A stretch of 40,761 bases of DNA from the IMG/VR virus record IMGVR_UViG_3300027734_000133, positions 1 to 40,761 of that record; one strand, written 5' to 3'. The stretch's first letter is position 1. Every line of letters starts with the position of its first letter. Shown piece by piece: positions 20,363 through 40,761 of this stretch. Source of the stretch: a virus. A program made the position numbers and the translations under genes. A model generated the notes under the pieces. It was not told the origin of the DNA and ran no database searches. It saw nothing but the letters and a program-made list of their open reading frames with translations.

Positions 20363-22270
20363 CTAAGCGTACTTAATTGGGCCAGCACCCAAAACGGTGT
20401 AGGTTGGTGTTGCTGCTGTTTTAATAATTGTAAACGAATAGGCATCTATAGATGATGCGTTACCAGCAGCAGGAGCAGTTCCACCGCTCCACTTAGGAGT
20501 AACTGCGCTTCCGTCGATTTGGAATGCTGTTTGATAATAAGCAGTAGCACCGTTTGTAACTAAAAATGCTACAGTAATGCTATCGCCAACATTAAGAACT
20601 GAATTGAGTGTAGTGCCGCTAGTACCACGGACATTCAATGTCCAGTTACCTGAAGCATTAGTGGTGTAGTAGAGCACCCCTTGAGTTGAGGCGTCGTAGG
20701 CAACTGTTCCAGTTGCTGCTGTTGCTGAAACAGTAAATCTTTCTTCAGGAGATATGAAGATAAAAGCATTTAATGTTTTATCCCATTTCAAGCCAGTGCT
20801 TGTTGTGCTATCTACTATGAGTGTTTGTCCAGCAGTTCCAACTGGCAAACGATCAACTGTTGTTGAGAATGTAGCAAGGTCACCTTTAGTAGTCACAACT
20901 GCAGGACCAGTTGCTCCTGTTGCACCAACGGCGCCTGTTGCACCAACAGGTCCAGTGGCGCCTACAGAACCTGCTGGCCCTGTTGCACCTGTTGGTCCAG
21001 GAACGGTACTTGCTGCACCTGTGGGTCCAGTTGTACCCGCTGGTCCAGTAGCACCTGTTGGCCCAGCAACTGTGCTTGCAGCACCAGTAGGTCCAGTCGG
21101 TCCAGTAGCACCAGCAGGGCCTGTGGCACCAGTTGGACCAACAATACCAGTTGAAATAATTGCCACAATAAGCGGGTGGTTGTTTGCAAAGTTGGTTGTA
21201 CCTGTTCCACCTGATGTTGTAAGCGTAACGGGAATTACCACATAATCTGTGAGCATTGTCGGTGTTGCAGACACTGTAAATTTTTGAAAGTTATCAGATA
21301 GGTTTTTATCTTGAACAATGATTACATCGTTTGTTTTAATCAACCCTAAGAAAATGTCAATATCAATATTATCTGCGTTGATGTGGTTAATGTTGATTTG
21401 TGTTGCAGAAATTTGTGTGGCGTTATTCCAGATTAAATGCTGATTTCCAGGGTCACCAGTTGTAATTGTAGTTTTTGCCTTGTAATCAAAGTAACTGGCA
21501 GAGCCACCATCAGCACCAGTAGCACCTGTAGCCCCTGTTACGCCTGTGGCGCCTTGTGGGCCAGTCGCTCCTGCAGGTCCTGTCGAACCTGTAACTCCTG
21601 TCGTTCCAGTTGCTCCAACTGGTCCCGTAGGACCTGTAGGTCCAACAATATTTACGCCAGCAGGCCAAGAGCCAGCAGCCTTTGGTCCAAAAATTTTATT
21701 GGTTGCAGTGTTAATATAAAAATCACCATTAACACCTTGTGTTGTTGGGTCTACTATTCCGTTAAGAACAGTGTAGCCAGCAACACCAGTTACTCCCGTA
21801 GGTCCTGTAGGACCTGTGGCTCCTGTAATACCCACGCTGCCTGTAACTCCTGTAGGTCCAGCAACTCCCGTTGCTCCGACTGGGCCCGTGGCTCCAGTAA
21901 CTCCAATAGAACCAGTAGCCCCAACAGGACCAGTGGGACCAACATTACCAGTAACTCCAGTAACACCTTGTACTCCTTGACTTCCTTGAGGTCCAGTAGG
22001 ACCTGTTGGTCCGACTACACCAGTTACACCTTGCGGTCCTGTTACGCCTGTTGCACCAATGGGTCCAGTTGACCCAGTAGGGCCTGTAGGTCCTGTAGGA
22101 CCCGTAACTCCTGGGGTTCCTTGTGGACCTTGGTCATTTGAGAAAACAACTGTAGTTTCAGGAGCAGCGTTCTCTGTAACAATAACTTCAATAGCAGCAG
22201 TATCTGGGCTGACGTTGACTGAGATATTGCTACTAGATGCTTGTTCTACGACTACAATTGTTTCGCTCAT
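20363..22270 (-). CDS. Collagen-like tail fibre
   Basis: The protein has 635 residues. An N-terminal beta domain of ~50 residues is followed by Gly-X-Y runs of the [10 protein letters not shown] / GATGVTG kind in three blocks (about residues 52-170, 210-250 and 375-455), separated by globular inserts. A beta-rich C-terminal domain probably trimerises it ([17 protein letters not shown]). Collagen-like triple helices are known in phage fibres. Hydroxylation is not required in phages, and the many Thr at Y positions may be glycosylated by the nearby transferase; this is inference. Confidence 0.88.
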
Positions 22271-38313: not shown

Positions 38314-40185
38314 CTATTCGTATTCGCCAAATTCATAATCGTTAACGTTCATAACGTAACGAGTATCTTGCTGACGTTTAGTTGCCCATTTATTTGGGAT
38401 GTGACTTTGATTGATTTTTGAACTACCGATTACTTCTTTTGCTCGCAGTTCACAGAACCACAAAGCCATTACACAGTCCGTCTTACCCTTGGTATCAGGC
38501 TTCCATGTAATCAACTGTTGGATAAGAGCCTTAATACCTTCTGAACCTTCTTGAGACGGCATCTCAATTAGGTTATCATTGTTGTATTGCTGACCACGCA
38601 TAGTGCCAAACAGTCCAGACATGGCAGCAACACCGAAAGAAGTGTCCCATTTGTTCTTGCCAGTAAACTGACTAGAGAACTTCACACCATTGGATGCTAA
38701 GAACTGACGTAAGTCATCATCTAAAGCATATGCCTTCTGGTGGGCATTGATTTCAATTCTAATCTCATGCGGTCTATACTTGGCAACCCAGTTCTCAATC
38801 AGCCTCTGAATCTTCTGAGGAGTTGGGTCTTGCATGTTTTCAACATCTAAGATGTAACGCTTGCGTGTCTGGCGGTCTACAGTCATAGCAACTGCTGCTG
38901 TATTACCAGTCATAGCAGGGTCAAGACCAATAATGGTATACCAGTGCCCTTGTTGTTCAGGGTGTCCTGGATTACCTGGCTTTAAAGGTCCGCGTTTGCG
39001 CATCCTGTTGATTGCATTTTGGACACACGCAGGGGGAAAGATTGAGTCTTCCTGGACGTCTTGCTGTTGATAAACAAGTGCCCAAGCAGAAGGAGAGACT
39101 TCTGAACGTCTACGAAACAGTGCTGGCCCGTTCCATTTAGGATAAAGGCCGTTCTCATCTGGAACGATATCTTCATCTGACCCCTCCCAAGGTATGTTAG
39201 AGTTCGGCCAGAGTGTAACCCACTTCTCAGGGTTATCATCAAACTCTAGCACCGCTGGCATTGACATATAGGTGAACGGGGTTTTCCCACCAGTCCAATG
39301 GTCAGGGTTACGAATCTCGCGATATAAATCATTTGAGGCAATACGGGTACCTACGATAAGCAGTTTGCCGTTATCACCAAGTCGAGTTACTACATCTCGC
39401 TGGAGCCAGAGGAGTTGTTTCTCCCACTCATGCGCGTTTGAAGTCGTAACAACGTCATCCAAGATGATGAGGTTGGAACGGGCGCCAGTAATCTGGCCAC
39501 CAACTCCGAGTGCTTGCACTGTCGGGTCCTTCTCGGTAGAATCGCGAGAAAGGTAAATCCTATCAGCCTTCCAAGTATCCGCATCTTCTTTCCATCCGCC
39601 AGATGAGCCATAGACAGATTGCATCTTGGCCCAGCGTTCATGAGACAGACGCTGCTTGATAGAGTACAGATACTCCTTGGCACGCTCCTGAGTCTTGGAT
39701 ACGATAGTAATCTTGATGTTGGGGTCCATGGCAATACGATAGACACAGTAGTTGACCGTGATAACGGTAGACTTTGCATGCTCAGGGGGTACGTTTAGAA
39801 GCAAACGTTTCGGGCTGGCTGGCTCATAGACCATACTGCTATGCATGTAACTTGGCTCACGTGCCTCAAGGATATCAATCCAGGAGCGGTGATGGGGGAA
39901 GATAGGGCTATCTAGGAACTCCTTTGAGAACTCCTCAAAACCTATCTTGTACTTGGCATCGCCAGTGACAATACTCAGGGTTTTCTCACCCTCAGTACGG
40001 GCCTTGTCAAGGGCCTTCATGAACTGCTCGTCCTTGCGCCAGTCCTTCATGACATCTGGCTTGCGGTCAGCCCTTGCAATTGCGTCCTGTAAATCAAGAC
40101 CTTGCTTGACAAATTCTAGTACTTTGGCCTTTGCCTCGCGTAGTGCCACCACATTGTGATGTTCCTTGCCACCCTTGGCAGCCAT
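38314..40185 (-). CDS. Terminase large subunit with N-terminal helix-turn-helix-like segment
   Basis: The protein has 623 residues. Walker A is VPPEHAKST (132-140), Walker B LIILDD (239-244), and the C-terminal nuclease carries GLDPAMTG (D422) and RIEINAH (E478). Together they give the ATPase and nuclease of a packaging motor. The first ~65 residues (VLEFVKQGLDLQDAIARADRKPDVMKDWRKDEQF in outline) resemble a helix-turn-helix that might recognise DNA. No separate small terminase was found. AGGGAG precedes the ATG. Confidence 0.93.
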   Translation of the reverse strand: MAAKGGKEHHNVVALREAKAKVLEFVKQGLDLQDAIARADRKPDVMKDWRKDEQFMKALDKARTEGEKTLSIVTGDAKYKIGFEEFSKEFLDSPIFPHHRSWIDILEAREPSYMHSSMVYEPASPKRLLLNVPPEHAKSTVITVNYCVYRIAMDPNIKITIVSKTQERAKEYLYSIKQRLSHERWAKMQSVYGSSGGWKEDADTWKADRIYLSRDSTEKDPTVQALGVGGQITGARSNLIILDDVVTTSNAHEWEKQLLWLQRDVVTRLGDNGKLLIVGTRIASNDLYREIRNPDHWTGGKTPFTYMSMPAVLEFDDNPEKWVTLWPNSNIPWEGSDEDIVPDENGLYPKWNGPALFRRRSEVSPSAWALVYQQQDVQEDSIFPPACVQNAINRMRKRGPLKPGNPGHPEQQGHWYTIIGLDPAMTGNTAAVAMTVDRQTRKRYILDVENMQDPTPQKIQRLIENWVAKYRPHEIRIEINAHQKAYALDDDLRQFLASNGVKFSSQFTGKNKWDTSFGVAAMSGLFGTMRGQQYNNDNLIEMPSQEGSEGIKALIQQLITWKPDTKGKTDCVMALWFCELRAKEVIGSSKINQSHIPNKWATKRQQDTRYVMNVNDYEFGEYE

Positions 40186-40203
40186 AATAACTCCCTCTAT
40201 ATA
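40175..40203 (+). promoter_or_regulatory. Candidate rightward promoter overlapping the terminase start
   Basis: TTGGCA (40175-40180) and TATATA (40198-40203) are 17 bases apart. They would drive plus-strand transcription away from the terminase gene into the 40.2-40.73 kb hairpin region. The boxes match 5 and 4 of 6 consensus bases. It is not proven. Confidence 0.4.
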
Positions 40204-40209
40204 TCCCCT

Positions 40210-40732
40210 ATAAAACTCTTGGGGTTATATCCCCCTTATCGCTCGATACGCTTTAGCGTATCTCGCTACCCCCTCGTGGTTCGTGGGATGGCCTCAAGCC
40301 ATCCTCACTACCGTTCGTATGTCTTAGCCACCCACTCACAGTAAGATAGACTCACTCAGTAGTAGTCGTTCGTCTATATATACTAACCCGTTCAAAACGC
40401 AAAAGCGAACGCACTAAAGTGCTAAATGTGACGGAAGTCACCTAGTAAATGTGTACAAATACGGACATATCGGGGCATCTCGTAATACTGGAAAAATATT
40501 TTCTCGCGATAGTGTATACCTATGCCCCTGGGGTTTATAAGCACTGGGGTCGCCCTAGCGACCACGAAACTTATCCAATAAGAGTCTTTAGTCCGTTATC
40601 TTTTGTCTTTGTCTGTGGGAAAGACACCGGTCTTTCTGTACCTAGTCAATTAATAAATCGGATAGATACTTAATAAAGAAGCCGCGAGGGTCTACCGCGA
40701 GCGACCTTTAGGTCGCGAGCGCGCGATTTTTT
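40210..40732 (+). ncRNA. Candidate structured non-coding RNA
   Basis: Between a candidate promoter and a terminator-like hairpin lie these stems: GGGG/CCCC (40221-40234), GATACGC/GCGTATC with loop TTTA (40245-40262), GGATGGC/GCCATCC (40286-40304), GCACT/AGTGC (40411-40422), GTGAC/GTCAC with GNRA-type loop GGAA (40428-40441), GGTCGC/GCGACC (40548-40563), GAAAGAC/GTCTTTC (40619-40636) and GCGACCT/AGGTCGC (40701-40716). The GGAA tetraloop favours the plus strand. The class is unknown and this is a hypothesis. Confidence 0.35.
40713..40732 (+). terminator. Terminator-like hairpin at the right end
   Basis: TCGCG (40713-40717) pairs with CGCGA (40722-40726) around loop AGCG and is followed by six T (40727-40732). 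It shares bases with the preceding stem 40701-40716, so the two folds exclude each other. Confidence 0.5.
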
Positions 40733-40761
40733 AGGGTTTCCGATAAGGCGTGTGGTTTGTG

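Follow-up and report, generated by a model that had tools for sequence, protein, structure and literature searches.

The gene-free stretch upstream of terL, at the right end of the linear 40,761-bp virus contig from IMG/VR that we analysed (the window), contains a conserved feature that is real and absent from Rfam, namely a composite end, promoter and leader module and not a giant ornate RNA. We consider it probable, though well short of certain, that this stretch is the left-end control module (in the orientation of terL) of a linear, Beephvirinae-like podophage of actinobacteria, made of a terminal repeat, a promoter and leader hairpins. The paired hairpin set just upstream of this DNA-packaging gene is previously uncatalogued, and the literature search found no description of such an end, promoter and hairpin element. 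More than 100 actinophage contigs from the environment share it as an end and late-control module, and it can be recognised in Streptomyces phages that are in culture and so allow it to be tested.

The gene-free end and its relatives

Nearly all genes of the window lie on the minus strand and run leftwards from terL, whose start is adjoined on its upstream side by a GGGAG ribosome-binding site on the same strand. The terL product, a large terminase with an RNase H-like domain, has 44% identity to that of Streptomyces Beephvirinae, and the kinship is seen in both TerL and the major capsid protein. An actinobacterial host fits the gene content because the window encodes WhiB-like and sigma-factor-like proteins. 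A scan of genes in the neighbourhood of terL did not reveal a small terminase. The coordinates of all the features are reported in Table 1.

Table 1. Features of the terL-proximal end of the window, listed from terL to the genome terminus
Feature	Position	Strand	Basis or remark
terL, large terminase subunit	38314..40185	-	phrog_38, E 4e-70; PF17289; about 600 relatives
H7 hairpin, tandem-GA module AGYGA...GARCG, G-run flanks	40239..40268	-	about 28 different stems, all complementary
H6 hairpin, GGATGGC-loop-GCCATCC	40286..40304	-	18 different stems, all complementary
H5 hairpin, TAGAC-GARCG...AGYGA-GTCTA, tandem-GA module	40347..40376	-	covariation in alignments A1 and A2
Predicted -10 element TAGTAT in invariant GAACGGGTTAGTATAT	40380..40385	-	invariance and spacing; unique in the window
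H4 inverted repeat, CGTTC-N13-GAACG	40389..40411	-	overlaps the -35/spacer region
Putative CRP-like operator, GTGA-N6-TCAC	40428..40441		73 of 159 aligned relatives
Conserved AATATTTTTCCAGTATT element	40484..40500	-	alignment; also in L078-L080 (terL 62% identity)
Predicted direct terminal repeat, about 247 bp	40515..40761	-	homology; right cut inferred at TATA^CACTATC
H2 hairpin, weak in the window	40525..40533	-	fixed position, fully variable sequence, loop 3-4 nt
H1 hairpin, GTCGC/GCGAC, with invariant GACCCC	40546..40563	-	conserved in the alignment
GC-rich hairpin with T6, terminator-like	40696..40732	+	sequence; aimed at the genome end
Genome terminus, window ends exactly at 5'-CACAAAC	40755..40761	-	shared contig starts

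An earlier reading of this DNA, made from the sequence only, had described 576 bases without a gene, rich in perfect stems, as a possible structured RNA. Both observations hold: there is no credible gene between the terL start and the contig end, and the excess of stems is real. Counting perfect Watson-Crick stems with loops of 2-6 bases against 500 dinucleotide shuffles, we obtained 18 stems of 5 bp or more, a number that includes overlapping solutions, where 3.2 were expected, and 5 of 7 bp or more, where 0.19 were expected; none of the 500 shuffles was as high. Folding was also better than in shuffles on both strands (z of -3.9 on the plus strand and of -4.7 on the minus strand). The location given for the region was right and the plus-strand orientation was wrong, as the conserved features run with the minus strand of terL. 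The proposed promoter TTGGCA(40175)-17-TATATA(40198) is present in the letters, but it straddles the terL start on the plus strand, relatives do not have it, and the consensus promoter scan gave it no score because TATATA lacks the final T.

More than 100 relatives in IMG/VR keep the region upstream of terL. We obtained 80 loci by searching IMG/VR with TerL, and to most of these the upstream stretch could be aligned by blastn, over about 500 nt and with 65-79% identity in the best cases. One locus, L020, has no upstream sequence and was left out. The core motif TGAACGGGTTAGTATAT retrieved 105 further IMG/VR loci, some of them on contigs already counted; terL lay 140-215 nt downstream in 98 of these 105 and 641 nt downstream in one, and the other six were contig edges (4) and chance matches within genes (2). 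Distant relatives, with terL at 57-62% identity, retain parts of the core. A blastn search for distant similarity found no match to the region among phage records.

We compared the window with five Streptomyces Beephvirinae, Manuel, Immanuel3, FlowerPower, Kumquat and WRightOn. In these phages, too, terL is the first annotated gene and follows a gene-free left end of about 620-680 nt, which holds GACCCC or CCCGGGG followed by TTGTTAA and a hairpin, one or more CRP-like sites, and hairpins before terL. Unlike the rest, the leader hairpin sequences differ, and the covariance model of the leader found no match there, so that hairpin homology with the Streptomyces phages is by eye only.

The genome terminus and the predicted terminal repeat

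CACAAAC is the exact starting point of at least ten contigs (the window, L002, L016, L022, L051, L135, L146, L148, L156 and L178; the L146 terminus is the variant CACAAAA), and a near-identical phage (L212) as well as other relatives read across this point, with a conserved GCAGATAGTCNCCCRA just before the cut. For these reasons the right end of the window is most likely a physical genome end. The other genome end is outside the window, in which the outer terminus alone is supported. At its opposite extremity the contig starts (window 1-3) within a gene for a 202-aa protein, and L212 shows about 300 more bases there, up to and across the terminus. The terminus motif GTTTGTGTYGG (CCRACACAAAC on the minus strand) is repeated three to four times after this gene, at window 699-775, and relatives also have a copy of it 5.5-6.5 kb from terL.

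In each of the five deposited Streptomyces Beephvirinae genomes a direct terminal repeat, 253-276 bp long, runs from base 1 to just past the GACCCC (or CCCGGGG)-TTGTTAA-hairpin. From the homologous site we predict for the window phage a terminal repeat of about 247 bp with its inner end near 40515. No contig ending exactly at this predicted inner end was found, bar one circular-assembly break. We discarded as candidate terminal repeats the end overlaps of 123-127 nt in circular contigs, which are assembly k-mer overlaps. In the proposed arrangement, the outer part of the stretch would be the terminal repeat, with its outer end at the last base of the window and its inner end near ACACTATC, and terminase would cut concatemers at the inner repeat end, beside the invariant GACCCC and H2.

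H2 is represented in the relatives by 78 unique sequences, with a mean stem of 5.4 bp against 3.6 bp in shuffles, and there it is found where the terminal repeat has its inner end. Two other readings of it were tried and dropped, a nut-like boxA/boxB pair formed by GTGCTTTAA and H2, and an N4-type hairpin promoter: the A/T stretch is conserved too loosely, the loop bases change, and the location is at the repeat boundary in relatives. For H1, a strand asymmetry that at first appeared rich in A-C was mostly due to sequences that do not form the hairpin. The T6 hairpin of the sequence-only reading does exist, but it is aimed at the genome end, and its proposed role as a terminator is unsupported; relatives carry terminators of either orientation at this place.

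In the cos/cosB region of phage lambda, the linear genome end is followed by a gene-free regulatory stretch and then by the terminase genes. The window differs in having a terminal repeat (inferred) and not cohesive ends, and covarying hairpins that have no counterpart in lambda. The packaging RNA of phi29 is likewise a structured element at a genome end near the packaging ATPase, and the location is alike. A phi29-like RNA, made at the genome end beside the packaging ATPase gene and working in the motor, would agree with the position and with the lack of a recognised small terminase; the Rfam search gave no match, and the terminase is of the large type with an RNase H-like domain, unlike phi29 gp16. 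We regard this explanation as very improbable.

The predicted promoter upstream of terL

In 71 of the 73 relatives with GTGA-N6-TCAC, a distance of exactly 49 bp separates the centre of the palindrome from the downstream TA of GGGT|TANNNT; for the CRP-like sites of the Streptomyces phages the distance to a downstream TATAAT, TATACT or TATAGT is 48-50 bp. The putative operator thus has the properties of a CRP/FNR-type site, that is, a TGTGA-N6-TCACA palindrome at a fixed promoter distance. The supposed GNRA-type loop, GTGAC-GGAA-GTCAC, is in fact the centre of this palindrome, and the free variation of its middle bases among relatives marks it as operator-like and not as a GNRA tetraloop. The remaining 86 of the 159 relatives have no CRP-like site: about 26 carry TAACA...TAAC there and 60 have neither. 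The replacement by TAACA...TAAC repeats is seen in one clade (e.g. L043, L115, L152) and suggests an activator switch. The loop of H4 is 13 or 14 nt long in 157 of the 159, and its stem is altered in distant relatives.

The predicted transcription start is near 40373, which would give a leader of about 190 nt. The class I position classical for CRP is near -61.5, and the centre of the CRP-like site would fall near it, assuming a start 6-8 nt past the -10 box. We also considered a possible SigB/SigF-like promoter; the pattern GTTC-N15-GGGTTA has one match in the window, and the phage encodes a sigma-like protein. The genes for the sigma-factor-like protein (window 5333-6037, minus strand) and for the WhiB-like protein (window 3711-4085, plus strand) are candidate controllers of the conserved promoter. 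Taken together, terL and probably the long structural operon would be driven by one conserved promoter, whose parts are a TANNNT -10 box, an inverted repeat that covers the -35/spacer and, some 61 bp ahead of the start, a CRP-like activator site.

This organisation bears on the idea of a large ornate RNA. GOLLD and ROOL are phage-encoded structured RNAs of a few hundred nucleotides with no known protein (PMC12286853). The element of the window stands at terL and the genome end, whereas theirs are near a tRNA island; it shows just three covarying leader hairpins; and an Rfam search of the whole window, with GOLLD, ROOL and HEARO included, returned no match at the gathering threshold and, at E<=5, only two chance matches to unrelated families. 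There are no tRNA genes in the window, and one of 21 loci scanned (L062) has tRNAs. A single RNA that spans about 390 nt between H1 and terL and has a closing CCCC-GGGG helix, as an analogue of GOLLD/ROOL, would account for the pairing by RNAalifold of the invariant CCCC beside H1 with the GGGG before H7, and for the covariation of H2. Nevertheless, the CCCC/GGGG and ACTATC/GGTTAGT pairs barely vary, and these helices were set aside because they have no covariation; moreover the region includes a fixed-spacing CRP-like site and a -10 box, and upstream of H1 nothing promoter-like is conserved. We therefore judge a single ornate RNA unlikely, and the element is probably a leader and not a free RNA. 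What stands of the original proposal is a conserved covarying element; for much of the region DNA functions provide the explanation, namely the terminus with the predicted terminal repeat, the terminase cut-site region and the promoter with its CRP-like site.

Leader hairpins and the lack of G-U pairs

Compensatory base changes, for which the sequence-only reading had suggested looking in related phages, were found in the hairpins. In alignment A1, 96.4% of cells were paired and both sides had changed in 18 of 23 pairs. The covariance-model alignment A2, which leans towards the model, gave 98.5% of cells paired, 194 double changes, no one-sided change in 805 cells and a covariation of 0.62 against 0.17 when shuffled. 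When all column pairs were evaluated with a phylogeny-aware null, 6 were significant, 5 of these being complementary and nested. H5 and H7 have a common module, GARCG opposite AGYGA, with the strands swapped, and the R-Y pair of the tandem-GA of H5 is matched in 91 of 91 sequences. In each relative, the terL leader was the one place with a strong match to the leader covariance model. The same reading had allowed that the stems might be operators or a packaging site; this applies to part of the stems, the GTGA-N6-TCAC site and H2, and not demonstrably to H5-H7.

We considered as an internal control 45 distinct terminators from the same contigs, in which 413 of 473 pairs were Watson-Crick, 56 were G-U and 4 were A-C, i.e. 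12% G-U with a strand bias of 14:1. By comparison, G-U pairs were 0 of 896 in H6 and H7 and 2 of 389 in H2, a deficit with p of about 1e-27 and 2e-13, uncorrected for relatedness. No preference for G-U over A-C on the transcribed strand was seen in H5-H7 and H2, where G-U is nearly absent and the strands show no bias. Selection on RNA only should tolerate G-U and favour it over A-C, which is not what is seen; the near-absence of G-U suggests that the structure matters as DNA too, or on both strands. It could be explained by a role in DNA, by a role on two strands or by an unusually strict contact between RNA and protein. An early strand count (262 G-U against 71 A-C) was not used, as RNAalifold helices allow G-U and two invariant G-U columns dominate it.

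Template switching yields perfect palindromes and could account for missing G-U pairs, and the stems without G-U would thus agree with ordinary intergenic DNA in which they are a functionless by-product of GC-rich repeats or template-switch mutations. This has hardly any probability in our view, given the fixed positions and flanks, the invariant tandem-GA modules, the conservation across many lineages and the fact that terminators of the same genomes have not been homogenised likewise.

The leader of about 190 nt between promoter and terL would form three strictly Watson-Crick hairpins, two of them with the same tandem-GA module, and it would be their shape that is recognised, whether in the leader of the terL mRNA or, beside the packaging end, in hairpins of extruded or single-stranded DNA. 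H5-H7 could work purely as RNA, in a structured 5' leader of the late operon that serves as a platform for protein binding or antitermination, the tandem-GA modules being the binding sites. Their location between the predicted start and the terL ribosome-binding site in nearly all relatives and their covariation speak for such a leader, as does L062, in which tRNA-Trp and tRNA-Asn lie between leader and terL in the same orientation (L062 2030-2339) and the leader is retained; this fits an operon leader and argues against simple occlusion of the terL ribosome-binding site. On the other hand, H5-H7 have almost none of the G-U pairs, and not the strand bias, of the terminators, which are genuine RNA hairpins; H2, upstream of the predicted promoter, has the same G-U-free pattern; and in the window H5 overlaps the predicted transcription start with its outer pairs, which fits an RNA poorly. 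We thus hold a purely RNA leader to be a serious possibility, at somewhat less than an even chance. The position within the predicted leader speaks for RNA, whereas the missing G-U pairs, the closeness of the genome end and the overlap between H5 and the predicted start speak for DNA; on this count the chances would be about equal, with a slight lead for DNA or both strands.

More specifically, we propose, tentatively, a structure-recognised, sequence-free array of hairpins with duplicated tandem-GA modules, kept as DNA or on both strands and not as RNA. In a large family of actinophages, terminase or another phage protein might use this array to form ends, to package DNA or to control the late promoter. 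Should the G-U-free covarying hairpins function as DNA, phage end formation would offer a rare example of DNA recognised by structure only; should they function as RNA, they would be a new leader-RNA family. The count of G-U against A-C, with terminators of the same genome as control, offers a simple test for separating DNA from RNA cases.

Elsewhere in the window, we observed an amidoligase-like gene (window 1093-3414, plus strand; Pfam match under the cut-off) alongside a class-II glutamine amidotransferase gene, and collagen-type repeats in a tail fibre gene (window 20363-22270, minus strand).
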